From assembly GCA_022565805.1 (NCBI GenBank), contig JAIULZ010000002.1:1-64000 (forward strand): a stretch of 64,000 nucleotides of DNA, in the 5' to 3' direction. The stretch is from Balneolales bacterium (GTDB lineage Bacteria > Bacteroidota > Rhodothermia > Balneolales > Cyclonatronaceae). A program made the position numbers and the translations under genes. Position 1 is the stretch's first letter; every line of letters begins with the position of its first letter. Below, piece by piece: positions 19,514 to 46,415 of this stretch. Below the pieces are notes generated by a model, which did no database searches, was not told the DNA's origin, and saw only the letters and a list, made by a program, of their open reading frames with translations.

Positions 19514-22500
19514 TTGCAGGACAAAAAAGATATTATTCAGGAAATTAACCACTACCAAAATCTGGTAGACAAAGCCTGGTCCAAGGCGCTTATAAACCGA
19601 AAATTGGCTTTGTTTTTTAGTGGCCTCACCGGGTTTATGATCGTTTTTGCCGTACTCATGCTCCTGGAACATCAGGCGTATCTTTCTCCGCTTTTAAAAT
19701 CCAGTTTATGGGTGGCCGCATCTGCAGTGGCGGCAATCGGAGCCTATCTTGTTTATCAAAAACTGCCAAAGCTCGAAAAAGACAGCTTTTACCGCCGTAT
19801 AACGAGAGAGACCGAGCTACAGCAAATGCGTTACCTGCTTGATCTTGGGCGACTTGAAGATTCTTCCAATCAGGTTTTTCGGGATACTGCAATACTTCAG
19901 AATCTTGAGGTATTAAGGGCGCATGAGCAACATCCCGACTCGAAGCCCGAAGTTCGCATACAGCGCTGGCTCTGGAATTTCCCTGGCGCCGTTTATTTTA
20001 GGAAAATTGCTTCGGTGGCCGGCGGCGTTTTTGCCATTATTCTTCTCATCAGTTTGTTTCGCACAGACGCTGCAGTCCGTTCGATTACGTTCTGGGGCGA
20101 GTTCGAGCGCCCGAATCCCTTTGAGTACAGTATTGATCCGGGTAATATTGCAGTAGAACAGGGTAGTAGAATATCAATTGAAGCAACATTTACCGGAGAC
20201 CAGCCGGAAACCGTTGCCCTTGCCCTAAGAAGCGGTGTTGAGGAGCGTTTCCGCACAATTCAAATGGAACAAACCCGATCGGGACGATTTGTTTCTCCTC
20301 CGCAAGAGATTTTTAATGACACCGAATACAGAGTCTTGATGGATGATTTTCAGTCCCCCATTTTTTCTCTGGAAGTTCAGCAAACACCTCGTTTTCGCGA
20401 GCTCATTGCAGAAGTAACTCCTCCGGCTTATACCGGAAGAGAATCGGAACGCTTTACCTACCCTTTTTCCCGAATTGAGGTTCCGGAAGGTTCCGAAATA
20501 GAATTGCGCGCCACTGCTAATAAACCAATTGCACTGGTTTCTGTACTTCGGGCAAAAGACAGAGACAGCGACGAGCCGGCACAATCCATGTCTGCTTTAA
20601 CCGAAGAGCAACAGTCTTTTTCCTATACATTTACGGCCACAGACCCCGATACGCTTTCTTTTCGTCTTACCGATGATGAAGGCCTGTTAAACCGTAATCC
20701 ATTTTCATTTAATCTTCGTGTAATACGGGATCAGGCGCCTACGGTGCGCATTATTCGCCCGGAGGCCGTTATTCAAAAGCTGAACCCCAGAGAACTTGAA
20801 ATTCAGGCAGAGGCAAGAGATGACTATGGCCTCAGCTCCATCCATCTCCGATACGAATTACGCCCCGGTTTCGGTGGTGATGTGCGCCGTGGCAATGTTC
20901 GCATTTCGGGTCGGGCACCGGCATCAACCAATATTCGCTATTCCTGGGATGTTTCTGAGCTACAAATGCAGGCCGCTGATGAAGTAGTCTATTGGATTGA
21001 AGTTTTTGATAATGACGAAATTAACGGCTTTAAATCTGCGGTTTCGGCGCGCCAAACGCTTCGTGCTTCTTCCCTGGCTGAATCCATTATGCAGCAAGAA
21101 GAGCAAGAAGACGACCTTACAAGACGACTGGATGAGCTAAGCCGGCAACAGGATCAGGCACGGGAAGAACTACAACAGCTTCGGGATAACATCATACAAA
21201 ACCCGAATGAAAGCTGGGAGCAGCAGCAGATGACCGACGAAATGAAGCAACAGCAGGAAAGAATGAGCGAGCAGCTGCAGCAGCTTCAGGAAGAGTTCGA
21301 TCGTATGAGTGAAGAAATGATGAACGACTCGGTGATTAGTGAAGAAACTCGGCAGCGTTATGAGGACTTACAGCAATTAATGAGCGAAATTGATGATCCG
21401 GAAATTCTTGAGCTACTCGAAAAGCTGCGCGAAAGCCTGGAAAATATGGATCAAAACCAGATTCGTGAGGCGCTGGAAAATCTTGAATTTAATGAGCAGT
21501 CCTATCGCGAAAGGCTGGAAAGAACCCTTGAATTATTTAAGCAGCTACGTCTGGAATTAGATCTTGACCGGGCCAGCGCACTTCTTGAAGAGCTTGCGCA
21601 GCAGGAAGAACGTTTGATGGAAATGGATAATGCCGGCGATCAACAGCAGCAGCAGGAAGCTATACAGGAAGAGCTGGATAAACTTCGTGAAAGACTCGAA
21701 CAGCTGCCTGAGAAAAGCCCGCAGCGCAGAATGCAAATGGTGGAAGAGCTTTCTGAGCAAATGGGCGGACAAATGGATGAAGTACAGCAGAAAATTGATG
21801 AAAACCTGCAGGAACTTCAAAGCGGTGATCCCGATCAGGAGCGCTCTAAGCAACAGCAGAGCGAAATTCGCGATCAGCTCAAGGAAATGAGTGAACAGCT
21901 GTCAATGGCGCGTAGCTCGATGCAGCAGCAGCAGCTGGAGATTAATATTGCGGCATTGCGATCCATCTTTCAAAGTATGATAACCCTTTCTGAAGCGCAG
22001 GAAGATTTGAACATAGAAACGCTGCAGCTGGAGCCAAACAGCATCGCTTTTGTGCGTCAGGCCAGGCTTCAGCGAAATATTTCCGCAAATTTCAGCATTA
22101 TCTCAGACTCGCTGATGCAGGTCGCTAAAGAAATTCCGCAGTTTACTAATGCAGCGCTTCGCTACAGACTGGAAGTAGAGCGTAGTTTGGAGCAGAGCGT
22201 AGATTTCTTGCGGGAAAGAAATAAAAATCAGGCCACAACGGCAGAGCGAATTGGGCTTGGTGGGCTAAATCAGCTGGGCGGCATGATTGCAGACCTGCTT
22301 GAGCAGCTGGATGAAATGGATGGCGAAGGTGGCGGCGGTGGCGGAATGGATTCCGAGCAAATGATGCAACAAATGGAGCAAATGGGCGAAATGCAACAAC
22401 AGTTGAATCAGCAGATACAGGATTTTATTAATGATATGGCAGGAGATCGCCTCACGCAGGATCAAATGGAGCGGCTCGACCAAATGGCGCGACAGCAGAA

Positions 22501-22921
22501 CGAAATCCGGCAGCAGGTTGAACAGCTTCAGCGAAGCGGCAATTTTCGTCAGGGTGACCGTATCTTAAGCGAGCTTCAGCGCCTTGCCGAGCAAATGGAA
22601 GACACTATTAACGATATTCGTGGCGGCAGCACCGATGAGCTATTAGTTGAGCGGCAGCAGAATATCCTAAATCGGATGCTCGAAACTCAGCGATCTATGG
22701 ACAGGCAGGATGAAAGCGAAGAGCGACTTGGCATAAGCGCAGAAGACGTGGAGCGATCCGATCCGCCGGAGCTTACCCTTGAAGAATTAGAGCGTGAAAT
22801 CCGAAACCGACTCCAGGATCCCAACCAAACCCGCTTTACAGATGATTATCAACAGCTTATAAGAATGTATTTCCAAATTCTCCAGGAGATTGAAGGTCAG
22901 GAAATTCTTATGAATCCTTAG
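19514..22921 (+). CDS. Large DUF4175-type membrane protein with Gln/Glu-rich coiled coil
   Basis: 1135 aa. Three membrane segments lie in the first 200 residues (about 29-50, 57-76 and 161-180). Then come Ig-like beta domains (about 200-510) and a very long helical region rich in Gln, Glu, Met and Arg (about 520-1080), with a short Gly-rich patch near 938-946. This matches the DUF4175 layout seen in Bacteroidota and Alphaproteobacteria, where function is unknown. The only in-frame start after the stop codon at 19499 is the TTG at 19514; no good ribosome site is visible. Base composition is as in neighbours. The gene stands alone after the MBL hydrolase (135-bp gap). Confidence 0.72.
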   Translation: MQDKKDIIQEINHYQNLVDKAWSKALINRKLALFFSGLTGFMIVFAVLMLLEHQAYLSPLLKSSLWVAASAVAAIGAYLVYQKLPKLEKDSFYRRITRETELQQMRYLLDLGRLEDSSNQVFRDTAILQNLEVLRAHEQHPDSKPEVRIQRWLWNFPGAVYFRKIASVAGGVFAIILLISLFRTDAAVRSITFWGEFERPNPFEYSIDPGNIAVEQGSRISIEATFTGDQPETVALALRSGVEERFRTIQMEQTRSGRFVSPPQEIFNDTEYRVLMDDFQSPIFSLEVQQTPRFRELIAEVTPPAYTGRESERFTYPFSRIEVPEGSEIELRATANKPIALVSVLRAKDRDSDEPAQSMSALTEEQQSFSYTFTATDPDTLSFRLTDDEGLLNRNPFSFNLRVIRDQAPTVRIIRPEAVIQKLNPRELEIQAEARDDYGLSSIHLRYELRPGFGGDVRRGNVRISGRAPASTNIRYSWDVSELQMQAADEVVYWIEVFDNDEINGFKSAVSARQTLRASSLAESIMQQEEQEDDLTRRLDELSRQQDQAREELQQLRDNIIQNPNESWEQQQMTDEMKQQQERMSEQLQQLQEEFDRMSEEMMNDSVISEETRQRYEDLQQLMSEIDDPEILELLEKLRESLENMDQNQIREALENLEFNEQSYRERLERTLELFKQLRLELDLDRASALLEELAQQEERLMEMDNAGDQQQQQEAIQEELDKLRERLEQLPEKSPQRRMQMVEELSEQMGGQMDEVQQKIDENLQELQSGDPDQERSKQQQSEIRDQLKEMSEQLSMARSSMQQQQLEINIAALRSIFQSMITLSEAQEDLNIETLQLEPNSIAFVRQARLQRNISANFSIISDSLMQVAKEIPQFTNAALRYRLEVERSLEQSVDFLRERNKNQATTAERIGLGGLNQLGGMIADLLEQLDEMDGEGGGGGGMDSEQMMQQMEQMGEMQQQLNQQIQDFINDMAGDRLTQDQMERLDQMARQQNEIRQQVEQLQRSGNFRQGDRILSELQRLAEQMEDTINDIRGGSTDELLVERQQNILNRMLETQRSMDRQDESEERLGISAEDVERSDPPELTLEELEREIRNRLQDPNQTRFTDDYQQLIRMYFQILQEIEGQEILMNP

Positions 22922-23267: not shown

Positions 23268-26102
23268 TTACTTTAGTAGCAGCATTTTTTGTACAAGCAG
23301 AGAAGTTCCTGCGCGAAGCCGGTAGAGGTAAACTCCCGATGCAAGCCTCGTTCCATCGAACACGGTTTCATAGCGTCCCGGTTCTCTCAATCCTTCATTT
23401 AATGTAGCCACTCTTCTACCTGTAATATCATAAACTGTAATCGTGACTTCAGAGCGTGAACCAATTTCGTAGGGGATAATAGTTTGATTGTTAAACGGAT
23501 TAGGATAGTTGTTCCCTAAACGAATTTGAAAAGGCAGCTGATAGCCCGGGGGAAGCATGTCGCTCAATTCGCCCGAAACCCCGGTGGCAGAAACATCTGT
23601 ATACAGCCCGAAACCAATTTGCAAGCCAGAAAAGTTTATTCCATTACTGCTTACTCTGGTGGTAACCGCCCCTCGGGGCAGACTTGACTCCGCACGCGAT
23701 AGTATTTCAAGCTCCCCGCTATTTTGTGCTGTGCCAGCAGGAATAACATCAACGACGAGCGCCGCGCTGAAATCTTCAAGTAAGGCAATGCCAATTTCAG
23801 ACAAAGGGATGAAGTTTTCTAAAAATGGCGATAGGGATGAGAACGGAACTTCTGCTGAATCGCCTACAAATCGCCTGATGCCCTGCTGATCCGAATCCAT
23901 TTCGGCAAGCTGTACGCGCAAAATGCCATCACCCGAAATTTCCCCTGTATGTATTGTTATACCGTTTACAATACCCTGAAAAAGCGGCAATAACACTTTT
24001 GCGGCTTCGTCTCCTCCACTACGCAATAAAAATCTGTTTTCGGGATTTGTTTGGACAACTCCGGCGGTATAAAAATGTAGAGGAATTAAGCCAGTACCGG
24101 GATCATCAGACAATAATCCGGACCCGTAGCGTTCATCCAGCAGCTGAAGAGCACCGGGGAGCCTCAGTTTTCCAAAACCATATTCCATATTGGGCAGATT
24201 TCCTGTAAATGAATCCAAGCCTGCGCTTTCATGAATAGCCTCTTTAATATCTTCGGCCATAGCCTGTGGAAAAGCCTGCAGAAGCAGCGCAACGCCACCG
24301 GCAACTACCGGAGAAGCCATACTTGTTCCTCCCTGCCAAACATACCGGCTATCGAAAGCTACGAGCGAGTTAGAGTAGCTTGCGTCGGCCGACCGGCTGG
24401 ATGCCACAAAACGTCCGGAAGCCATTACATCCGGTTTGATGCGGCGATCTCGGGTTGGACCCAAACTGCTAAAAAAAGCGCGGCTTTCGAATGGATCGGA
24501 AGGAAATTCAGATACATTTCCCGAAACATTAACCAGATTGTTTTGCATTACATATGCTCCCACCGTAATTACGCTTTTGCCAGAACCGGGGGTGGTCACC
24601 GAAAAGTCGCTGGTTGCATCCCGAATCGTTGCGCTTCTGGTTCCCAGCCTGCTGGAAACCAGCCAGCTATCGAACATACGACCCGCATTTTCCACCACAA
24701 TTTTCCAGGTACCCGATGCCGGTGGAAAATTTGGATTCTGATCAATAACCTGCATCACTATATTACGGTGGCCGTTTGCAGACTGCACCATATTTATTCC
24801 AAGAATACTGCCATCAGAAATATCGGGAGCAAAAAACGAGCTTGACGAATTCCAGGTAAACTCAAGTCCACCCGGGCTAATGACCGTCATGCTGGCGTTA
24901 ACATCCGAATCAAACCAGACATCAACCAGAAAAAAATCATTAGTCGAACCGGCGTTCGGGTTATACTCTGGAACCTCCACATAAAGCGTGTCTGCGTCGG
25001 CCATGGCACTCACATATCGCGGCTGTGTGGCGCTGTTACCAGCGGCGGCAACCATTACAACACCAGGATTCTGACTAACTTCATCCATCATAATTTCTGT
25101 CGGTTCTGTTCCGTCTCGCGAAGTAAAAAATCCGCCGATACTAAAATTACCCACCACTGGCCGGTTGTATGTCTCGTTAAGCCAGCCCATAAACTGAGTT
25201 GCTGCTATAATATTTCCTGATGAAAACGTGTTGTCTCCGCCCTTTATCGCCACAATATCGGCTCCCGGCGCCATCCCCGTAAAGGCCGCGCTGCCTGCTG
25301 CAGTACCCGCAACATGACTGCCATGACCAGTAATATCGCGGGATGAAATCCCTTCTCCTGAAGATAATCCCTGCTCAATATCGGCTCTGCTGTACAGCAC
25401 GCCAAAGTTAAATGGAGATGGTGGAGAACTTTCGCCCTGAGCTGGTTCTCGGGTTTGATCCCAAACGTATTTAATACGGCTACTCAAACTATCGCCCGGC
25501 ACCCGAAACGAAGGATGCTTTACATCGATTCCGGAATCGAATATCGCAACAATTACGCCTTCTCCGGTTAGCGGTTCGCTTCCTGCAAATCCCTGATGGA
25601 GCATATCGGCACCGGTTGCCGCTCTTGCCCGGTTACCCATTGTAACATGTAATTTACCCGGCTCGAGCCAGCGTACATCATCCCGTAATGCGAGATTCCT
25701 GATTTCGTTTAGCGTAGCATAAACAACAAAAAGTCCGTCGCGGACCGGCAGAGCGTTTTCTATTACCACACCGGGATTAGTGTAAACGATTAGTTCGGTA
25801 CTCATTTCGCTGCTTCCGGCTCTGTATCGAACCCCCGGCATGCGTTGCCCGGCCATTTGCTGAAGCATTTCATTTACATCATTTTCTGATGCTCTCAGCA
25901 GTGCTTCAACAGCCGGATGTAGTCGGTTTTCTGCAAACTCCATTTGAAGAGCATTCTCCGAAACCTGAAGGCTAAAAGCAGCATCCAAAGTAGTGAGTCC
26001 GCGAAATTCATCACCCTGCTGGGCAAAAATCTGAGATGGGCAGGTCGCCATTAAGCTTACGACAAATAACAGGAAACCGTAAATTCGTATCTTTTTTTTC
26101 AT
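23268..26102 (-). CDS. Exported subtilisin-like serine protease with type IX-like sorting domain
   Basis: 944 aa. A signal peptide (about 1-27, ending SQIFAQ) is followed by a prodomain (about 30-150) and an S8 catalytic domain. The triad is Asp189 (AIFDSGID), His260 (GHGSHVAGTAAG) and Ser594 (GGTSMASPVVAG). The Asp-Ser gap is long because a beta insertion occupies about 355-510. A C-terminal beta domain of about 85 residues begins NYPNPFNNQTIIPYEI and ends in SGVYLYRLRAG and a Lys-terminated strand. That is the FlgD-like/T9SS type A sorting domain, so it is probably secreted or surface-attached through type IX secretion. It is monocistronic. Confidence 0.88.
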   Translation of the reverse strand: MKKKIRIYGFLLFVVSLMATCPSQIFAQQGDEFRGLTTLDAAFSLQVSENALQMEFAENRLHPAVEALLRASENDVNEMLQQMAGQRMPGVRYRAGSSEMSTELIVYTNPGVVIENALPVRDGLFVVYATLNEIRNLALRDDVRWLEPGKLHVTMGNRARAATGADMLHQGFAGSEPLTGEGVIVAIFDSGIDVKHPSFRVPGDSLSSRIKYVWDQTREPAQGESSPPSPFNFGVLYSRADIEQGLSSGEGISSRDITGHGSHVAGTAAGSAAFTGMAPGADIVAIKGGDNTFSSGNIIAATQFMGWLNETYNRPVVGNFSIGGFFTSRDGTEPTEIMMDEVSQNPGVVMVAAAGNSATQPRYVSAMADADTLYVEVPEYNPNAGSTNDFFLVDVWFDSDVNASMTVISPGGLEFTWNSSSSFFAPDISDGSILGINMVQSANGHRNIVMQVIDQNPNFPPASGTWKIVVENAGRMFDSWLVSSRLGTRSATIRDATSDFSVTTPGSGKSVITVGAYVMQNNLVNVSGNVSEFPSDPFESRAFFSSLGPTRDRRIKPDVMASGRFVASSRSADASYSNSLVAFDSRYVWQGGTSMASPVVAGGVALLLQAFPQAMAEDIKEAIHESAGLDSFTGNLPNMEYGFGKLRLPGALQLLDERYGSGLLSDDPGTGLIPLHFYTAGVVQTNPENRFLLRSGGDEAAKVLLPLFQGIVNGITIHTGEISGDGILRVQLAEMDSDQQGIRRFVGDSAEVPFSSLSPFLENFIPLSEIGIALLEDFSAALVVDVIPAGTAQNSGELEILSRAESSLPRGAVTTRVSSNGINFSGLQIGFGLYTDVSATGVSGELSDMLPPGYQLPFQIRLGNNYPNPFNNQTIIPYEIGSRSEVTITVYDITGRRVATLNEGLREPGRYETVFDGTRLASGVYLYRLRAGTSLLVQKMLLLK

Positions 26103-34997: not shown

Positions 34998-37406
34998 CTA
35001 TCGGCTTAATATAGTCACTTTCTGCCGATGCCTGTTCCCAAAATTATCTGTGAGTGAAAGAATGTACTCTCCTGGCGATGCGTCTATACTAAGCTGATGC
35101 CGCGAGCTGGTCTTGCCAATAAAAACTTCATCCATAAACCAGAATACCTCTGCGCCGGAAGACTCGTGAGCCAGTTCAAAAACAGCTCTTCCTTTTTGAC
35201 CGTCTGCCTCCAGCGGGATGTAAATTTCGGCATTGGCAGGTGGATAAACCATCTCCATGGGTTGCGTATTTCCTGTTTCTTCACAACCCTGTGCCCAGCC
35301 CGGCAGCTCGCGATAGCCAGTATTTACAGTTCGGTAATAGGCAGCCATGGCCGGTGGCAGACGAAACAGCTGCTCGGCCTGCATGTTTTCCGGGCTTGAG
35401 CAGCGGCTGCTCACACGCTTACTTCGGGTTTCCCGATCAGTAAAAATAACGCTGTGATACGGGCACAATCCTGTTTGTAAACCCTTTGCTGGAATACTTA
35501 CAAGATGAGTTTTCTCGCAGTCGGACCCGGCTCTGTGGCCACTTTTGGTACAGATTACAACCTGCTCGGTTTCATATACAGGCTCGCTGAACCAGCTTGT
35601 CTCCGGCAGCTGATGGAAGATATCGAACATTACAGGTCCGGCTACAGAAGCTCCCGTTAAGCCCGCTCGCCCTTCGCCATCAGCATTTCCAACCCAGACC
35701 GCAACTACATATTCGGGAGTTACGCCAATGGCCCAGGCATCCCGATGACCAAAGCTGGTTCCGGTTTTCCAGCCTATTCGCCGGGCCGAATCAAACCGAC
35801 GCCAGTCGACCTCACCATCGGGACGGGTAACTTCCTGCATGGCGTTAAACATTACCCAAAGCGAACCATTGCCCGGCAGCCGACCGGACGATTCCCACAA
35901 AAAAGATGGGTAAGGCTCAGACCATAGCCGCAAGCCAAACTCAGGGTCACTGCTGGCATCTGATAGCTCAAAATGCTTGCCAAGCTGATTCGCCATCCTT
36001 GCATACAGACCGCCCATTTCCAGCAAACGAGTTTCGGCTCCGCCCAGAATAAGCGTAAGACCGTAGTGGTCGGCTGGCTTTTTAATTGTTGTAAGCCCCA
36101 TCTCATTAAGCTGAAAATGAAAGCGCTCCAGCCCATATTCTCTCAGCATACGAACAGACGGCACATTTAACGATCGTGATACCACCTCGCCGGCCGGAAC
36201 GGCCCCGGAATACGTTCTGGAAAAGTTTTGAGGCATGTAACCCGAAATCTGAGTGGGCACGTCGGGGATTAAAGTTCCGGGCAAAATTTGTCCATCGTCG
36301 AGCATCAAAGCATAAAGCAAAGGCTTTAGTATGCTTCCAGAACTTCGTTCGGCCTGCACCAGATCAACGGCGTGGCCCCGGGCTGGCTCAAAGCTTGTTG
36401 TGTTTCCGGTATAGGCTTTTATTTCTCCGGTTCTCACACAAATTACAAGTGCGGCTGCATGGTGTATATCATTTTGCACCAGCCTGGAATAATGCCGGCC
36501 AATCACCGTATTAAGCCTGTCCTGCAGGCGATAGTTGATAGTAGTTGTAATTCTTTTCCCTCTCAGACGTGAACTACTCCAAGCCCGGTCGAGCACATGT
36601 GGACTCAAAGTAGGAAGAGGATGAGGCGCTTCAGGAATCTGCTCGAGTAAGGCCAACTCAAGATCCATTTCATCCAGATGGCCGGCTTTGTGAAGCCTAT
36701 GGAGCAATCCGTTGCGTTTTTGCAGAAGCATTTCGCGGTTACGGCCCGGATGAATCAGAGATGGACTATTGGGTAGCACGGCAAGCAGCGCGCTTTCGGA
36801 CCAGGACAATTCATGAATATCTCTTGCAAAATAACGCCAGGAAGCAGCTTCAATCCCCACTACATTTCCGCCAAAAGGCGAATGAGCAGCATACAATAGC
36901 AGAATTTCATCTTTATTATACTTGAGCTCCAACCCAATTGCCCGAAATATTTCAGCCGCTTTTTCCATAGGTGTTCGGGCTGGGTTTTCACGGGATAATC
37001 GCACCAGCTGCATAGTAATCGTACTTGCACCGCTTACCACTCTGCCCTGCTGAACATTTTGTGTTATCGCTCTGCTTAACGCCAACGGATCTACTCCCGG
37101 GTGGTATCGAAAACGTTTATCTTCGAAAACCAGAACCGATGCCACGTACTTTTCCGGCAAAGCTTCGGGCTCCGGAAATCGCCACTGACCGTCTGCCGCA
37201 ATTCTGGCGCCAAGCAGCTCTCCGTCGCGATCGGTAAGCACCGTAGAATAGGGCACATCAAACAGTGTACCCGCCGCTAAAAAGCGAGCCACTAGCAAAA
37301 AAGCCATCACCATACCCCCAACAAAAAGAAAAATCCATGAGAATCGAATGGATTTGGCGTTTTTACCTTGCTTTAGGTTTGATGAACTTTCCGTGCTTTG
37401 CATCAC
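34998..37406 (-). CDS. pbpC: Penicillin-binding protein 1C
   Basis: 802 aa bifunctional peptidoglycan synthase, anchored by a membrane helix (about 22-45). The GT51 transglycosylase has catalytic Glu95 in VFEDKRFRYHPGVDP. The transpeptidase has Ser358-x-x-Lys361 (SGSILKPLLY), SLN at 412-414 and KTGT at 547-550. The C-terminal domain of about 90 residues (PPANAEIYIPLEADGQKG and beyond) is the BiPBP_C domain specific to PbpC. All catalytic motifs are intact. It is the last gene of an operon with an A2M gene, the same partnership as yfhM-pbpC in E. coli, thought to repair and protect the wall after attack. Confidence 0.93.
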   Translation of the reverse strand: MMQSTESSSNLKQGKNAKSIRFSWIFLFVGGMVMAFLLVARFLAAGTLFDVPYSTVLTDRDGELLGARIAADGQWRFPEPEALPEKYVASVLVFEDKRFRYHPGVDPLALSRAITQNVQQGRVVSGASTITMQLVRLSRENPARTPMEKAAEIFRAIGLELKYNKDEILLLYAAHSPFGGNVVGIEAASWRYFARDIHELSWSESALLAVLPNSPSLIHPGRNREMLLQKRNGLLHRLHKAGHLDEMDLELALLEQIPEAPHPLPTLSPHVLDRAWSSSRLRGKRITTTINYRLQDRLNTVIGRHYSRLVQNDIHHAAALVICVRTGEIKAYTGNTTSFEPARGHAVDLVQAERSSGSILKPLLYALMLDDGQILPGTLIPDVPTQISGYMPQNFSRTYSGAVPAGEVVSRSLNVPSVRMLREYGLERFHFQLNEMGLTTIKKPADHYGLTLILGGAETRLLEMGGLYARMANQLGKHFELSDASSDPEFGLRLWSEPYPSFLWESSGRLPGNGSLWVMFNAMQEVTRPDGEVDWRRFDSARRIGWKTGTSFGHRDAWAIGVTPEYVVAVWVGNADGEGRAGLTGASVAGPVMFDIFHQLPETSWFSEPVYETEQVVICTKSGHRAGSDCEKTHLVSIPAKGLQTGLCPYHSVIFTDRETRSKRVSSRCSSPENMQAEQLFRLPPAMAAYYRTVNTGYRELPGWAQGCEETGNTQPMEMVYPPANAEIYIPLEADGQKGRAVFELAHESSGAEVFWFMDEVFIGKTSSRHQLSIDASPGEYILSLTDNFGNRHRQKVTILSR

Positions 37407-37446
37407 TTTTTTCTTAACTGCAGTTTATGAAGGCTTTGAAAAACCT

Positions 37447-37866
37447 TTATGAAAACAGCGAACTGATTACCCCGTAAGGAACACGGGTATTTTCTTCAAA
37501 TTCACGCTCCAATTTCTCCAGCTCCTTCGGGCTCGTTGCGGCATGCAATCCATTTTTGAACTGATACCACTCCTCCAACACCTGAATACAGGCCCGGTAA
37601 TAATCCGGATAGTGCTCGTCTGGCAAAACCGGCAGCGCGCTAAGCTCCGAAGCGAAGGATTCCAGAGTTTGATCATGCTCGTCGGCGAGTTCATCGGGGA
37701 TGTTAATGGCATACAGCATTTGGAGCTGCATAAGAGTTTCCATCCAGTCTACATCATCGAAACCGGCCTCAAAAAGCTCCGAAATAAGCGTTTGAGGCGA
37801 GAGAGCGGTATCCTCGTCGAAATGAGATCCGATTTCTGATATTAGTGCGTAGGTGTATTTGTTCAT
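37447..37866 (-). CDS. Acyl-carrier-protein-like protein lacking the modified Ser (unknown)
   Basis: 139 aa, no family recognised with certainty. Residues about 20-75 resemble the ACP four-helix pattern. LFEAGFDDVDWMETLMQLQM (31-50) followed by YAINIPDELAD (52-62) matches the ACP stretch D-S-L-D...LEE-F-IEIPDE, but the phosphopantetheine-bearing Ser is Asp38. Without it the protein could not carry an acyl chain. The remaining C-terminal part (about 85-139) is acidic and helical. It sits between the A2M gene (67-bp gap) and pbpC (40-bp gap) on the same strand, so it is most likely co-expressed with both. The ACP relation is inference from pattern. Confidence 0.6.
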   Translation of the reverse strand: MNKYTYALISEIGSHFDEDTALSPQTLISELFEAGFDDVDWMETLMQLQMLYAINIPDELADEHDQTLESFASELSALPVLPDEHYPDYYRACIQVLEEWYQFKNGLHAATSPKELEKLEREFEENTRVPYGVISSLFS

Positions 37867-37933
37867 TTTTTAAGTATGCTTTCATATTGTAGGGTGATGT
37901 AGAAGCCTTAGCTGTTTTCTCCTACGAAAAGGA

Positions 37934-40900
37934 TTAGGGCACCGGCACTGCGCTTCTGCTTATGCGGATTCGGTCGGATGCGCTTCTTGCAAAAATACGC
38001 GCATCAGAAACCGACACACTGCGGACCGGAGCAAGCAGGAATTCCCCTTCATAAACCACCGTAAACCGCTGTGCAAACGTTTTGGTTTCGCCCGCCGAAA
38101 GCCTGAAATACGTAATAATTTCGCTATCGCGGCGATCTCTGGCAAAAAATGCGGATGTTTCCTGCTGCGTTTCGCCAAACACTATGGCATCAATCTGCCC
38201 GGGTAAAGGCTGCCATCCGGCAGGTACAGGCTGCACAAGAGCCAGCTGCTCCATATCGCCACGGGTTCCGGGATTAGTAATACGAACTTCGGCCGTAATT
38301 TCCATACCGGGGTACAGCCGGCTCAAATCGGCAACCGAACCATCTGCGGTAAGATACCGGAGCTGCTGAACAAGGCCGTTGCTGTCTTCTGATATTCGCC
38401 TTGCCGCCAGATCGGGAACCGATTCGACCGAAAGCGTGATATAAACCCGTGCATTGCCTTTATTTTCAATTACCAGCTCTCCGGATCGCAAATCGGGTCG
38501 AAACCGAACCGAATAGGATGCCGACTGCGACGCCACAGCTGTAGCATCGAGACCGCTGCCGCTCATTTTAAGCTCTAACTGATCGCCTGCTCCGTATTTT
38601 TTTATGAAATCCGTCATGGCGCCAATCGAAAACGCGATAGCCTGAGGAGAAACCCAACCTGCGTTTTCACGAATCCGGACCAAATCCCGAAGCGCATCGG
38701 CGGCCTCCGGCTCCATATCCAGATAGACCAGCGTTTGTAGCAAAAATGCCTGATCCCGAACAGCAGAACCATACATCCACCGACCGGAACCTGCATTTGC
38801 GTCTGCCGGAATTGAGGATATCAACGAAACGGCTGCCCGATCCTGCCCGGTTGCGGCATAGGCTGCGGCAAGTCTCCACCGAGCCTGAACAGAAAGTCCC
38901 GGCATTTCCCTAAACCGATTCATAGCGCCCATATCCGGCTGACCTATTTTTGCCAGCACATATAAACGATAGGCCTGCACCAAATCGTGGTGCATGGCGC
39001 CAGAATCGGCGGCTCTCCAGCCCGAAGCTGCCCGGCGAACATACTTCAGCAGCGGGTCCATTTGCTGTGATGACACATAATAGCCCGATCTGGAAGCCTC
39101 ATGCAAAAAGTGAAGCGCATAGCTGCTCATCCAATCATCAGAAAGCGGGCTCCCCGGCCACATAGAAACCGCCCCGGAAGCATGCATAAAACGAGGAATT
39201 TCCTGTATGAGCCGCTCAATATCGCGATCGGCATTTCGGCTAAAATCATCACTCAGCTGTATTTCCGCATTTTTAAGCCACAGAAGCGGAAAAACCGCCG
39301 ATATCTGCCTTTCTATGCTCCCAAACGGATAACGATTTATCCGCTGCAGCCAGCTCTCAAAATCGACTGCCGGAATGGTGGATACTTCTGCAACAGCCAT
39401 CTGCGTACCATCAATACCCGTAGCCGTAAATGGAATTCGGGTTGTGTCGCCCGGTTCTGCTTGTTTCCGAATAATTTCTGTGATGGGATCTCCGTAGCGA
39501 CTAAGCTGCAAGTTTGCGGCATAAGAAGCCTGCTCACGTCCGGAGGTAGCTGTCCAGAAGAGCTGACCTTCTCCTTCGTCGGTGCCGGTTATGCTAAAAC
39601 GGGCTGTTTGTGTTCCGGCCTCCGAAAAAGAAACCATCCTGCGCCCACTTTCGCCCCCTGCATTTTTAACAGCACCTTCACTTCGTAATTCAAGCTGTAC
39701 ATTTCCGGAAATACCAGCATCTGCAAATACGGTAGCCGAAACAACCAGACTGTCGCCGTAGTTCAGGTGCGATGGGGCAGAGCCGAGCAGCATTAGCGGT
39801 TGTTTTACCAGTGTATTTGCGGTAGTACTGCCATGCCTGCGATGTTCGGGATTCGTGGCGACCACCATAGTGCGCACTCTTCCGGTGTAAGCCGGCATGG
39901 TAAAGGCATGAGTGCGCGAGGCACCGGCATCCAGCAAAAACGGCCCCATCACTCTAACAACCGGCCGGAACCGACCCGGACCGTCTGCATCTGCATCGGG
40001 ATCTATCTCCATATCTCCACCCACCGACAAAATTCTGCGCATACTTCCGGCATATACGCCCGCAACCATATCGAACAAATCCCATGTGCGTATTCCAAGA
40101 GCTCTGCGACGATTAAAAGCAGAGAAAGGATCGGGAGTACGAAAATTAGTGAGGTTCAGTAAGCCTTCATCTACAACCATAATGGTGTAGGTCATGGCCC
40201 GGCCCGAATCTTCCGAAATCTGAATCGTCATTTCATCTCCCGGCCTAACCTGCTCAGGAACCCTTGCAACTGGTTTAAGCATCGCATCATCGGCCTGCAC
40301 GGTAACCGGCACAATTCCGAACATGCGCACCGGCAAATCGTTACTACTTTGGCCGTGCGGCTGCAGCAAATGCACGCTTACATACACGTTCGGCCTCATT
40401 TCTTCCGTAATCCTAATCGCCGCCTTATTCTCGCCAGCCTGAGTATCCACCCATTTCCAGTCTATAACCCGGCCGGCTGTTTCTGTTGTGATGAGAGCTT
40501 TCCCACCCTCAACTCCGTTAAAGCTCAAATTCAAATTATCACCCGGACGATAGGTTTCTTGATCGGTTTCCAGTACCAGCATTGCCGGCGCTCCGCTTAT
40601 TCTTGATGAACCGTAGCCTACATAGAATTCCATGCCCGCTGCGTGTCCGCCGCCTTCATCCATCACCCTTACAAAATATCTGCCATAATCGAGGCGATGT
40701 GTCGGAAGAGTAACCGTAGCTTTGCCATCCGATTGTGTACGGGCCAGCACCCTGAAAACCGGCCTGCTTGCCGACTGCTGAAAATACTGACTCAGCTGCT
40801 CCCGGCTACGCTGCCACCACCATCTCCACTCCAGCTCATAAACTTCAACCATAAGTTCAGCATCGCGCTGCGGTTTTCCGTCGGCATCGAGCAGAACCAG

Positions 40901-43579
40901 CTGAGCCGTAGTTTGAGTTTCGTATTCCACCGACGCAAACTCCGAATCAAGATCGGGCAGCCGGATACCGGCAAAGCGGTTATACGCCAGCACCGTAAAC
41001 TGCGATCGATGCGTATTTATGCTGCCCGAGGGTTCAAAAACACGAGTAACTACGTTCGCACTAAGAGCCGGTGGAGAATCAGCCAGCCGATCCAGCCGAA
41101 TGGCTACATTGGCAGCACCATCGGAATCGAGCGCCCCGTCTGCAACAAGAGCGGGAGCGAGCTCGGCGGTACGGCCGGGATCTGTAAAGCGAAATTCCGC
41201 GTAATCAGAAAACCCAAAAGGCACTTCGCGCAGCCCTGCTTCTATTTCGAAATTCAGGTTCTGAGCGATCGCACCATGAAGCCATTCTGCCCGAATTTGC
41301 GCATCCATCAACTGACGCGGCCAGATCAGGCGCTCATCATCGAAGTTTACCTCAATTGCAAGACGATTGGGAAGTATATTTTCAATATTAAGACGATGGA
41401 AAAAGTCGGAACCACCGATTTGAGCCTGAACCATCCAGCGCCCGGTTTGGGCATCGCGCGGTGTGGCAGAACGAAAAGCATACATACCGCCAACAGGCCG
41501 CACGGTTTGCACCTCAGAAAGTCTGCCCCCAGGATCACGAAGCTCAAAACGCGCCGGCACATCCGGAAAACGTTCACCCGTATGCGGCTCAACAATCAGA
41601 TGCACATACAGCGAATCTCCGGGACGATGTACATCCCGTTCGGCAAACATAAAGCCCTGCAGACCTTCTGAGGGTGATACCCCGGTTACATCGAATTCAC
41701 TTATAGATAAGGCTGCATTTCTGGGAGTTCGCAGAAACCCGCGCTGTTTGCCAAGAGCAGCCTTCAGCAGGTAAATTTCATCTCCGGCATTCAGTTTCAG
41801 CGAACCATCGGAGCCGGTATGCCCCTGCCCAACCCGCTGATACTGATAATCAAGCGCAGTTACCGATACCCCCGGCATTGGTGCAGCAGTTTTAAGATTG
41901 GTTGCAAAAACGAGCATGCTGCCATCGGGACCAGCTTTTGCCAATAAACCAATATTGGATGCAAGCACATTACGATACACCCGTACATTAGAGGTATAAT
42001 ACGAATCGGAACAAGGATTGTCGCGCTCATTCCAGCGATAATTACCGCTCATCCACCAGGAATCGAATTCACTCCAGTAGTTCTGCTCATCACGAGGTGA
42101 TAAAACCCAGCGGTTTTCGCTATCTGCGGTTTCCATAGTCAACTCCTGCTCGCACGGATACAGCGACTGATGCCGGCGGAAACCCAGGGTTACCGCATAA
42201 AGTGCACCCTGCTCAGGCTCTATCAGCTCGCTAAGATCGAGTGCATAAGTATTCCACTGACCCGGATTAACATCGCCCAGAGTCTGTAGCGGAATTACTT
42301 TCTGCACAACAGGCTTACCCACTTCGCGGATTCCCCAGCTTCGATCCATATCTCCTTGCTGCAAAAACTGTGGGATATTTTCTTCGAAAATGCGGGTAAT
42401 CTGCACGTCTACAGCACCCAAGTTTACCGACTCAAAAGGCAGGAGCAAATCTTTAGAATCGGGCAGAATAACGCCGGAGCCAATCAGCCGCAGTTCCGGC
42501 GGCACATCACCAAAATCCACATTAAGCTCCACGGTTTCATCCAGCCTGCTCCTTCCTTTGGCTGTAATGCCAGGAAAAAGCTGTATCACGTGATCTCCTC
42601 TTCGCTCAGTCGTAGGATATACTCTCAGCTCATTTCTATGAAGTATGGTAGTAAGAGCCTCGCTGTTATTCACCAAAACCATTCCCCTTAGCTGCTGCGT
42701 CTCTTCCAGAAACTTAGAAAAAGAAATACGAATAAAAGGACTCCCGCTACGCTCGACCCGATATCCGGTTACGTAAAAATCCGATTCTGCCGGTATATCG
42801 ATAGTTTCTCTTCCTCGGGTTTCTCCTCCGGCCTCACGCCAGTCCCAGCTAAGAGTTGCGCTACGTTTTTGTGCTGTTTTGGTGATGGCTGCAGATACAA
42901 ATTCGAAATCTGTGGGGGAAACACTCTTCCATTCAAGCGGCACATTTCGGCCGTCGAGTCGCAGCAAAACCGATCTTTCGAGACGAGACAGTTCAACAAT
43001 ATCGGCAGAGCGGATGGAGCCTGAAATACGAACCCGGTCGTTTTCGGTAATCTGAGGAGGGTCTGCAGTTAGTTCGAAATCCTGAGGAAGCACCTGAACC
43101 GGGAACCGGAAAACATCGGCATCGGGCTCATCTACTACGGCAGGCAGATCGAAAGAAAAAGTATATACTTTACCATTTTGAAGCTTCTCGGCCGGATGAA
43201 ACCGGGCCGTAAAGGCATCGGTCCAAACCATCTCTCCCCGAACCGACGGTTTAACTGAAAACAAATTACCAGATCTTTGCTGCACCGACTCAGAAACAGC
43301 CTTTTGAAGACTAATGCTAACCGAACCATCGGCCCGAATAAGCCCGCGTGTATACCCGCTAACATATGGAGAACCCGGAAAATGAAGCTCCGCTGCATCT
43401 GCTCTGCTTTTTACATCGCCCGACTTACTGCCGCATCCTGTAAACATAAAAATACTGCTTAGCAGAAGTATCAGGATAAGAAAAAGAGGTCTTCCAAGGG
43501 AACCTGCAACGGTTTTCAAGATTTCTGCTGTCTTCAAAAATTTTACAGCCGTAATGCTGAGCAACATATTCATATTCAA
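37934..43579 (-). CDS. Bacterial alpha-2-macroglobulin family lipoprotein lacking the thioester motif
   Basis: 1881 aa. The signal peptide ends in a lipobox, FTGC, with Cys49 lipidated, so it sits in the periplasm. MG-type beta domains follow, the A2M_N region, a bait region, an A2M domain and the alpha/alpha TED domain (about 1380-1650), then receptor-like domains. In thioester-containing members TED carries C-L-E-Q; here the equivalent is Ser1421-Ile-Glu1423-Arg1424 in RYPFGSIERQIS (codons 39308-39322). Cys and Gln are both replaced, so no thioester can form. The protein can still trap proteases by shape, as other thioester-less members are thought to do. It is first in the operon with a carrier-like gene and pbpC. 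Confidence 0.88.
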   Translation of the reverse strand: MNMNMLLSITAVKFLKTAEILKTVAGSLGRPLFLILILLLSSIFMFTGCGSKSGDVKSRADAAELHFPGSPYVSGYTRGLIRADGSVSISLQKAVSESVQQRSGNLFSVKPSVRGEMVWTDAFTARFHPAEKLQNGKVYTFSFDLPAVVDEPDADVFRFPVQVLPQDFELTADPPQITENDRVRISGSIRSADIVELSRLERSVLLRLDGRNVPLEWKSVSPTDFEFVSAAITKTAQKRSATLSWDWREAGGETRGRETIDIPAESDFYVTGYRVERSGSPFIRISFSKFLEETQQLRGMVLVNNSEALTTILHRNELRVYPTTERRGDHVIQLFPGITAKGRSRLDETVELNVDFGDVPPELRLIGSGVILPDSKDLLLPFESVNLGAVDVQITRIFEENIPQFLQQGDMDRSWGIREVGKPVVQKVIPLQTLGDVNPGQWNTYALDLSELIEPEQGALYAVTLGFRRHQSLYPCEQELTMETADSENRWVLSPRDEQNYWSEFDSWWMSGNYRWNERDNPCSDSYYTSNVRVYRNVLASNIGLLAKAGPDGSMLVFATNLKTAAPMPGVSVTALDYQYQRVGQGHTGSDGSLKLNAGDEIYLLKAALGKQRGFLRTPRNAALSISEFDVTGVSPSEGLQGFMFAERDVHRPGDSLYVHLIVEPHTGERFPDVPARFELRDPGGRLSEVQTVRPVGGMYAFRSATPRDAQTGRWMVQAQIGGSDFFHRLNIENILPNRLAIEVNFDDERLIWPRQLMDAQIRAEWLHGAIAQNLNFEIEAGLREVPFGFSDYAEFRFTDPGRTAELAPALVADGALDSDGAANVAIRLDRLADSPPALSANVVTRVFEPSGSINTHRSQFTVLAYNRFAGIRLPDLDSEFASVEYETQTTAQLVLLDADGKPQRDAELMVEVYELEWRWWWQRSREQLSQYFQQSASRPVFRVLARTQSDGKATVTLPTHRLDYGRYFVRVMDEGGGHAAGMEFYVGYGSSRISGAPAMLVLETDQETYRPGDNLNLSFNGVEGGKALITTETAGRVIDWKWVDTQAGENKAAIRITEEMRPNVYVSVHLLQPHGQSSNDLPVRMFGIVPVTVQADDAMLKPVARVPEQVRPGDEMTIQISEDSGRAMTYTIMVVDEGLLNLTNFRTPDPFSAFNRRRALGIRTWDLFDMVAGVYAGSMRRILSVGGDMEIDPDADADGPGRFRPVVRVMGPFLLDAGASRTHAFTMPAYTGRVRTMVVATNPEHRRHGSTTANTLVKQPLMLLGSAPSHLNYGDSLVVSATVFADAGISGNVQLELRSEGAVKNAGGESGRRMVSFSEAGTQTARFSITGTDEGEGQLFWTATSGREQASYAANLQLSRYGDPITEIIRKQAEPGDTTRIPFTATGIDGTQMAVAEVSTIPAVDFESWLQRINRYPFGSIERQISAVFPLLWLKNAEIQLSDDFSRNADRDIERLIQEIPRFMHASGAVSMWPGSPLSDDWMSSYALHFLHEASRSGYYVSSQQMDPLLKYVRRAASGWRAADSGAMHHDLVQAYRLYVLAKIGQPDMGAMNRFREMPGLSVQARWRLAAAYAATGQDRAAVSLISSIPADANAGSGRWMYGSAVRDQAFLLQTLVYLDMEPEAADALRDLVRIRENAGWVSPQAIAFSIGAMTDFIKKYGAGDQLELKMSGSGLDATAVASQSASYSVRFRPDLRSGELVIENKGNARVYITLSVESVPDLAARRISEDSNGLVQQLRYLTADGSVADLSRLYPGMEITAEVRITNPGTRGDMEQLALVQPVPAGWQPLPGQIDAIVFGETQQETSAFFARDRRDSEIITYFRLSAGETKTFAQRFTVVYEGEFLLAPVRSVSVSDARIFARSASDRIRISRSAVPVP

Positions 43580-43839: not shown

Positions 43840-44433
43840 ATGACGATTCTAATAATCATATTGATTCTCATTCCGGTACTGATCATAATCTGGCAGATCA
43901 GTATTTACAATGGTTTGGTAACGCTGCGAAATCGCTACAAAAACTCTTTCTCGCAAATTGATGTACAGCTAAAGCGACGCTACGACTTGATTCCCAATCT
44001 TGTTGAAACCGCAAAAGGCTATATGAAACACGAACGGGAAACGCTCGAAGCAGTAATACAAGCGCGGAATCAGGCGCAGTCTGCCGAAAAAAGCGTGGCC
44101 GCCGATCCGGGAAATCCACAGGCATTAAAGCAGTTACAGAGTAGTGAAGCCATGCTATCAGGAGCTATGACCCGCTTTTTTGCGCTATCAGAATCTTACC
44201 CGGATTTGAAAGCCAACCAAAATATGATGCAGCTAACCGAAGAGCTTACATCAACAGAAAACAAGATATCGTTTGCACGACAGTCGTTTAATGATTCGGT
44301 TATGCTTTACAATACACAGCGCGAAAAGTTTCCGAATATTATCTTCGCCAACATGTTTGGTTTTTCTGAAGCGGCATTATTCGAATTAGAAAACCCGGCC
44401 GAAGAGCGTAAAAATGTAAAAGTCTCTTTTTAG
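43840..44433 (+). CDS. lemA: LemA family protein
   Basis: 197 aa. An N-terminal membrane helix (about 2-22) is followed by the helical LemA core: VTLRNRYKNSFSQIDVQLKR (residues about 27-46) with RYDLIPNLVETAKGYMKHE just after, and NDSVMLYNTQREKFPN near the end. All are hallmarks of the family. LemA proteins are membrane-anchored and of unclear function, but are very often encoded beside an M48 protease, as here (53-bp gap). Start ATG at 43840. Confidence 0.9.
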   Translation: MTILIIILILIPVLIIIWQISIYNGLVTLRNRYKNSFSQIDVQLKRRYDLIPNLVETAKGYMKHERETLEAVIQARNQAQSAEKSVAADPGNPQALKQLQSSEAMLSGAMTRFFALSESYPDLKANQNMMQLTEELTSTENKISFARQSFNDSVMLYNTQREKFPNIIFANMFGFSEAALFELENPAEERKNVKVSF

Positions 44434-44486
44434 TAAGACGATGCCATCACCCCCCAAAAAACGTTCAAACAAGTTAAATAAGCTGC

Positions 44487-46415
44487 ATGGATTTTTTTAA
44501 AGCGCAGGACGACGCACGGCGCAATACCGGTAAACTACTTTTTTTCTATCTGCTTGCCGTGCTTGGCCTCATCATTTCCATTTATTTGGTAAGCTGGGCG
44601 CTATTTGCCGGAAGCGGTGCCGCAGAGCCAGGCACCCTTGCGTTCTGGAATCCGGTGCTGTTTACCTCTATTGCAACCATCACACTGCTTATTATAGGTG
44701 CGGGATCGGCCTATCGTATTATAAGCTTGCGAAAAGGGGGTCGCGCTGTGGCAGAAATGATGGGGGCCCGGCTCGTAGAATCTTCCACCAAAGATCCCGA
44801 TGAGCGAAAACTGATGAACATAATTGAAGAAATGTCGATTGCCAGCGGCATTCCGGTGCCGGCAGTATACATTCTTGATCAGGAGAATTCCATCAATGCA
44901 TTTGCCGCAGGTTACACCCCGAATGATGCTGCCGTGGGAGTTACGCTTGGCTGTATAAGGCTGCTCAGCAGAGATCAGCTACAGGGTGTTATTGCGCATG
45001 AATTCAGCCATATTTTTAACGGAGACATGAAGCTGAATATACGGCTGATCGGGATTTTGAACGGTATCCTTATTATTCATCTTCTCGGGGCGGTACTCAT
45101 GCGCGCACAGTTTTACTCAAATATAGGACGAAGCGGGCGAAACGATCAGAAGGGCCGGCTGGCTATCTTGGTATTTGGAATCGCCCTTATGTTTATTGGC
45201 TACATGGGCGTTATTTTTGGCAGGATGATACAGGCGGCGGTTTCCAGGCAGCGGGAGTATCTGGCCGATGCAGCCGCGGTACAATACACCAGAAATCCCG
45301 ACGGCATTGCCGGGGCGCTTTTAGCGATTAAAAATCATAGCGAAGGCTCACAAATAAAGGAAGCGCATGCTGCAGAATTTAGTCACCTGTTTTTTTCGTC
45401 GGGCCACAAAAGCTGGCTCAACAGTATGATGGCCACACATCCGCCTATCAACAAAAGAATTGAAGCTATCAAGGCCTCATTTATGATGGAAATGTCGGGC
45501 GAGCGTGCCAGCAAAAAGTTTAATCACGAGCAGGATAGCGGAAAGAAAAAATCCGGTGACTCGGGATCTGACAAGTTCGATAAAATTGTTAAAGGCTCCA
45601 TGCTGATTATGGCCGCTGGAAATCCTGCGGCATCGCATCTTACGGCAGCGCGAAAAATGCTTGATGAACTTCCGGAAACCGTAACCGTAGCCCTGCGCGA
45701 AACGGATGGCGCCCGCGCGCTTGTAGCCGGGCTCCTGCTATCTCCGGAGGACTCAACCCGCGAAAAGCAGCATCTCATATGCGAAAATTACGACAGCAGT
45801 ATTTACGCCGAAGCCGAATTGCATCAAAAAGCCCTGAGCAGCAAGCCCGCGTACGTACACATAGCGCTTGCAGAACTATGCATAAACCCGCTTCGTACAC
45901 TTAAAAAAGCCGACTCCGTTGCCTTCACCGGATTTCTCAAAGAGTTGATAAATGCCGACGGGAAAGTGGATTTGCTGGAGTTTTGTCTGGAGGAAATCAT
46001 TGTTAACTCACTTCTGCGCTATCACAAAAACGGCAAAGAAGAAAAGGTGATTTACACTTCGATTCATGAGCTGATACCCGAATTAAACGTTTTACTTTCG
46101 GCTGTAGCCCTTCGTGCCGGTAATCCACAAAAAGCCTTTCAAACTTCCTCAGAAATTATCATTACAAGCTCAGACCGCGAATTTGAGCTTACCTTGCTTA
46201 CATCTGAATCCTTAACAAACGAGCGCCTTCGCTTGGCTCTTGAAGCCTTTAGAAAAGCATCTGGCGAACTAAAAAACTCTATGTTGCACGGGCTTGCCGA
46301 AGGTATGATTCACGATCGTAAAATAAATGAGGAAGAACTAAGCCTTTTCAGAGCTATAGCTGCATCTGTTGAGGTTCCGATTCCATTTATCATGCCCGAC
46401 AAACTGCTTTCATAG
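44487..46415 (+). CDS. M48 family metalloprotease, membrane-bound, with extended C-terminal region
   Basis: 642 aa. Two membrane helices near 17-42 and 56-76, then the Ste24/HtpX-like catalytic domain. The zinc motif is His171-Glu-Phe-Ser-His175, with the third ligand Glu257 in RQREYLADAAAVQYTR. Two more hydrophobic segments lie between (about 188-208 and 225-245). The region after about 350 is soluble; it contains two DGKV/DRKI-acidic helices (FLKELINADGKVDLLEF and IHDRKINEEELSLFR) reminiscent of TerB-like helical repeats. Length far exceeds HtpX (~290 aa). It follows lemA in an operon. The likely job is degradation of misfolded membrane proteins. Confidence 0.86.
   Translation: MDFFKAQDDARRNTGKLLFFYLLAVLGLIISIYLVSWALFAGSGAAEPGTLAFWNPVLFTSIATITLLIIGAGSAYRIISLRKGGRAVAEMMGARLVESSTKDPDERKLMNIIEEMSIASGIPVPAVYILDQENSINAFAAGYTPNDAAVGVTLGCIRLLSRDQLQGVIAHEFSHIFNGDMKLNIRLIGILNGILIIHLLGAVLMRAQFYSNIGRSGRNDQKGRLAILVFGIALMFIGYMGVIFGRMIQAAVSRQREYLADAAAVQYTRNPDGIAGALLAIKNHSEGSQIKEAHAAEFSHLFFSSGHKSWLNSMMATHPPINKRIEAIKASFMMEMSGERASKKFNHEQDSGKKKSGDSGSDKFDKIVKGSMLIMAAGNPAASHLTAARKMLDELPETVTVALRETDGARALVAGLLLSPEDSTREKQHLICENYDSSIYAEAELHQKALSSKPAYVHIALAELCINPLRTLKKADSVAFTGFLKELINADGKVDLLEFCLEEIIVNSLLRYHKNGKEEKVIYTSIHELIPELNVLLSAVALRAGNPQKAFQTSSEIIITSSDREFELTLLTSESLTNERLRLALEAFRKASGELKNSMLHGLAEGMIHDRKINEEELSLFRAIAASVEVPIPFIMPDKLLS

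Follow-up and report, generated by a model that had tools for sequence, protein, structure and literature searches.

A thioester-less alpha-2-macroglobulin placed within the Type I lineage and paired with PbpC in Balneolales

The alpha-2-macroglobulins (A2Ms) of bacteria are divided in the literature into Type I, which carries a thioester and is encoded beside PBP1c, and Type II, which has no thioester and is encoded in the mag operon. In animals, complement C5 and the ovostatins have independently lost thioester residues while the rest of their A2M-superfamily scaffold was conserved. C5 has a signalling role, ovostatin forms a tetramer, and these proteins have no link to cell-wall synthesis. 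The locus described here lies in a 64,000-nucleotide stretch of DNA from a Balneolales bacterium (the window) and encodes an A2M together with PbpC, although the thioester motif of this A2M has been replaced. It raises the question of the type to which such a protein belongs, whether its gene is still maintained and what function it may have. The following features were considered.

34998-37406, minus strand: PbpC (PBP1C), with intact GT51 and transpeptidase motifs and a BiPBP_C tail (TIGR02073, motifs).
37447-37866, minus strand: genus-specific gene of 139 amino acids between A2M and pbpC (open reading frame conserved in the genus).
37934-43579, minus strand: A2M, a bacterial Type I lipoprotein alpha-2-macroglobulin with the thioester lost (sequence, Pfam, alignments).
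38006-38011, minus strand: lost CTMG/MG10 lock, Val1857-Ser1858 replacing Met-Tyr (Met1625-Tyr1626 of Salmonella A2M; alignment and PMC4498604).
39308-39319, minus strand: former thioester site, Ser1421-Ile-Glu-Arg1424 replacing CxEQ (direct frame reading).
39971-40021, minus strand: approximate bait loop, at about residues 1187-1203, GGDMEIDPDADADGPGR (alignment; positioned from its homology to the bait region of ECAM).

Residue numbers presume a TTG start at 43579 and would shift if either of the ATG codons 2 or 4 residues downstream were used. Read directly on the minus strand, the A2M contains RYPFGSIERQIS, and the frame CGT TAT CCG TTT GGG AGC ATA GAA AGG gives R-Y-P-F-G-S1421-I-E1423-R1424, with the Ser1421 codon at 39319-39317 and the Arg1424 codon at 39310-39308. 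The initial annotation had described both the Cys and the Gln of the thioester as lost within a retained flanking framework, and the codons bear this out: serine and arginine stand in their places, R-Y-P-F-G precedes Ser1421 and Glu1423 is kept. However, the span that it gave for the motif, 39308-39322, covers five codons, of which 39320-39322 encode Gly1420. The SIER segment corresponds in alignments to YPYGCLEQ in YfhM of E. coli (Y1183...C1187-Q1190) and in Salmonella A2M, and the CxEQ signature of an internal thioester is absent; since both Cys and Gln are missing, thioester coupling is chemically impossible. A second, thioester-bearing A2M that could compensate was not found in the window genome, in which bMG10 and A2M_BRD each gave a single match.

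The window A2M contains the Pfam domains bMG3, MG2, bMG5, bMG6, A2M_BRD, A2M and bMG10, and its architecture of MG domains, BRD, TED and MG10 is that of Type I. It has in common with the Type I proteins YfhM (ECAM) of E. coli and SaA2M of Salmonella the domain order, the lipoprotein signal, the BRD, the TED framework (YP.G.xE) and the pairing with PBP1c, and trees place its descent inside the Type I lineage; YfhM was matched at 208 bits, whereas K-12 YfaS gave no detectable match. It differs from Type I in lacking the Cys and Gln of CLEQ, the Met-Tyr lock of CTMG (V1857-S1858 instead) and the TED threonine T1645, and is approximately 230 residues longer than YfhM. Like the Type II proteins MagD of P. 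aeruginosa and YfaS of E. coli, it is a large bait-bearing MG protein without CxEQ; however, the mag/yfa operon partners DUF2135, DUF2300, DUF1175 and DUF2138 are absent beside it and, unlike Type II, it is nested within the Type I tree and accompanied by PbpC. A Type II assignment was rejected on the tree, the neighbours and the YfaS comparison, and on these sequence criteria the window A2M is a thioester-less derivative of Type I.

To place the loss in the phylum, the order was sampled with 129 genomes and the phylum with 394, to which named loci of GTDB genomes were added; the sample was almost all from Bacteroidota in the GTDB sense, and a few genomes were counted twice as they were present in two collections. 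The order was assigned to Balneolales on the basis of named records that match its members; the Balneolaceae record L043, for example, is identical in the tree to L136 of G081. CxEQ was kept in 209 of 214 Bacteroidota A2M loci (156 of 161 aligned A2Ms, and then all 53 further loci). The five exceptions, with SIER in the window, SLEH in G002, SLEA in G004 and G005, and NLEF in G020, belong to four species of the window's genus and, in the case of G020, to another family of the order; Glu1423 is retained in all five, and every full-length A2M found in the window's genus lacks the thioester. The initial annotation had asked whether the loss was lineage-wide or confined to one genome. As it is common to the genus and to one more genome, it is a lineage-wide change and neither a recent accidental loss nor an artefact of assembly. 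The genome of the window is split into 290 contigs, a circumstance in which the SIER motif could reflect faulty sequencing or assembly; however, the four other genomes, one of them in a single contig, carry differing replacements of CxEQ and the lock residues are changed as well. Because these genomes are independent, such an error is excluded.

In the A2M trees, the thioester-less five and G037, which has CLEQ, form a six-member group with full support. Support for the five-member clade was 88/97 on A2M, 51 in a quick tree and 78/97 with PbpC added, and a single loss was recovered in 88% of the bootstraps with A2M, 81% with A2M and PbpC, and 20% with PbpC alone, which does not settle the branching within the six or the placement of loci L121 and L126. 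One ancestral loss, rather than two, is most likely from these trees. A possible cause lies in alkaline adaptation: the thioester hydrolyzes rapidly at high pH, and a soda-lake lineage may have exchanged this liability for a thioester-free trap, which would be a cause of the loss and not a separate mechanism. The window lies in Balneolales and its family may be Cyclonatronaceae, the type species of which is a soda-lake organism with a cell-bound protease most active at pH 9-10 (PMC6243061). However, G006, G007 and G010, from other genera of the same family, keep CLEQ, and this cause is considered highly improbable. The genus itself is represented by a single-contig genome of 4.3 Mb (G005).

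The thioester was not the only element to be lost. A position was counted as abandoned when it was conserved at 93% or more among the thioester-bearing proteins and had been dropped by at least three of the thioester-less five, and eight of 117 conserved positions (K1007, G1420, C1421, Q1424, T1645, N1793, M1857 and Y1858) fell in this class, compared with none or one in each of the control groups of relatives (n = 6). At 99% conservation five of 29 positions were abandoned, none of which lay outside the thioester site, T1645 and the lock tyrosine. M1857-Y1858 align with the lock Met-Tyr of Salmonella A2M and with M1634-Y1635 of E. coli; in the Salmonella protein, this Met-Tyr pair of the C-terminal MG domain and tyrosines of the TED form a pocket guarding the thioester (PMC4498604). 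In the alignment the loss of the lock tyrosine is graded across the thioester-less members: G002 and G020 retain the residue, G004 and G005 have Asn or His at this position, and the window has Ser. The thioester and its shielding lock have thus been lost in coordination. This parallel loss had been overlooked in the initial annotation, as had the 139-residue gene.

Whether the remainder of the protein is still maintained was considered from its rates, reading frames and predicted fold. Between the A2Ms of G004 and G005, dN/dS was 0.162 for the whole gene, 0.112 for the bait-region domain and 0.087 for TED plus CUB, the lowest part; whole-gene values in thioester-bearing pairs were 0.06-0.13. 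The bait loop of the window A2M matches those of thioester-bearing relatives in length and acidic character. A model of residues 1205-1881 (MG8-CUB-TED-MG10) predicted using AF2 had a pLDDT of 86.7 and best matched native Salmonella A2M (4u48) and native ECAM (4ziu), with a TMq of 0.73-0.74 compared with 0.37-0.39 for the activated forms. The structure prediction called for in the initial annotation returned a native-like fold, although its closed pose is weak evidence because the model alignment consisted mostly of thioester-bearing relatives, which favour the native pose.

Slow decay of the gene following loss of function would be consistent with several features: the window A2M has a terminal branch of 1.87 (about 0.5 in its sisters) and breaks ten of 66 near-invariant positions, G003, from the same genus, has neither A2M nor PbpC, and G001 has only a fragment of A2M at a contig end. 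The long branch suggests that constraint may be weaker in the window species; faster evolution of all thioester-less members was rejected, as only the window copy is on a long branch. Against decay stand open reading frames of 1847-1892 residues in the members that are not cut by a contig end, a dN/dS of 0.16, a visible lipoprotein-type signal in the thioester-less members checked and the retention in the sister species of almost all 97%-conserved positions outside the thioester region. The thioester-less A2M is not decaying, its remainder being under purifying selection, and the decay reading was judged improbable. An interrupted A2M was seen elsewhere in Balneolales, at L124 (G064:C2:447252-452726), where a CIEQ protein is cut by one in-frame TAA into 890 and 1056 residues and the adjoining PbpC is intact.

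The partner protein is complete, as the initial annotation had proposed. PbpC of the window scores 657 bits on TIGR02073, above the equivalog cut-off of 494, contains all of the catalytic motifs (EDKRF, GASTITMQ, S358-ILK, S412-LN and K547-TGT) and has no notable difference from PBP1C. In the order, PBP1C exceeded the cut-off in 21 of 129 genomes, and in two more once split matches had been joined. These 23 coincide exactly with the genomes whose A2M is full or long; neither protein occurs without the other, except in G001, in which the A2M match at the contig end comprises 50 residues. All five thioester-less members belong to this set. The pbpC gene adjoins A2M in the window, G005 and G020, with the 139-residue gene intervening in the first two, but in G002 it lies apart at G002:C75 beside trp-like genes, and in G003 no PBP1C over the cut-off was found anywhere in the genome. 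The pair is thus co-inherited with or without a thioester, usually though not invariably as neighbouring genes, which supports the view that the thioester is not what ties A2M to PbpC. The earlier claim that the pairing must rest on a thioester-free mechanism is supported as regards its independence of the thioester, which strict co-occurrence backs; its 'must' goes beyond the data, because the pairing could be partly inherited and pbpC of G002 is no longer adjacent.

Other genes lie beside the pair. Among 60 relatives, the 139-residue gene was found only in the window's genus (the window, L204:6943-7356, L202 and L203); it lies between A2M and pbpC in the window and G005, at different chromosomal sites, follows A2M in G002 and is present in G003, where it lies with the LemA and MFS genes (86% and 82% identity, respectively). 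Its product gave a weak, sub-threshold match resembling a phosphopantetheine carrier (PF00550, 19.1 bits) without the DSL serine, and no signal peptide was seen in it. A role as a Mag-like partner was not supported, given the lack of a signal peptide, its absence from the thioester-less G020 and its retention in G003 without A2M or PbpC. In G002, a transposase-like open reading frame of 481 residues (L120:6805-8247) follows the A2M and 139-residue genes, and the operon there may have been broken by an insertion element. The neighbours of the window A2M are PbpC, a 2OG oxygenase, MFS, LemA and M48, the last two forming a LemA-M48 peptidase pair (43840-46415, plus strand) divergent from A2M. Approximately 9 kb from the A2M-PbpC genes, the gene at 23268-26102 on the minus strand encodes a protease of the subtilase family that carries a Por secretion tail (PF00082, PF18962), and the long open reading frames at 19514-22921 (plus strand) and 59717-61768 (minus strand), of 1135 and 683 residues, had no Pfam match.

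As to function, we infer non-covalent trapping and a division of labour with PbpC. One ancestral loss would have removed the Cys and Gln, after which the shielding residues would have drifted or been replaced while the rest was kept. As a lipoprotein tethered in the envelope, the A2M would have its bait loop cut by an incoming protease, the MG ring and TED would rearrange upon this cleavage and the protease would be held sterically, without a covalent bond, while PbpC re-synthesizes the damaged wall. MagD, a thioester-less A2M, holds protease non-covalently (PMC5764988). However, mutational inactivation of the thioester of SaA2M was reported to abolish protease trapping (PMC5764988), and two inhibitors that act as monomers, A2ML1 and rat A1I3, require the thioester (PMC9156758); inhibition may therefore be lost in a Type I monomer that lacks it.

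If inhibition has been lost, the A2M could instead serve PbpC in a structural or regulatory capacity, as a large lipoprotein of the envelope whose TED and MG10 faces contact PbpC or the wall and signal bait cleavage to PbpC. The thioester dependence reported for trapping by monomeric A2Ms favours this, as do the strong constraint on TED plus CUB despite the lost chemistry, the strict co-occurrence with PbpC, the joint absence of both from G003 with the flanking genes kept, and a direct contact between the A2M C-terminus and PBP1c that has been suggested (PMC3328433); the retained bait loop and BRD, the separate pbpC of G002 and the alteration of the MG10 lock face, itself a possible partner surface, argue against it. 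With MagD on one side and the SaA2M mutant and the monomeric animal A2Ms on the other, a bait-triggered non-covalent protease trap is ranked first, at somewhat less than an even chance, and the role as a PbpC partner second, as a possibility of clearly lower probability. That a covalent trap became a thioester-free partner of the wall synthase, its TED and MG10 being maintained as a module for interaction with PbpC or for sensing, is somewhat unlikely; if true, the conserved pairing of A2M and PbpC in bacteria would have a basis other than covalent capture of proteases.

This clade breaks the rule that separates Type I from Type II, being Type I by descent and by its pairing with PbpC, yet thioester-free. 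It constitutes a natural experiment in which the thioester has been separated from the partnership with PbpC, and offers a testable case of an A2M-PbpC pair without covalent capture.
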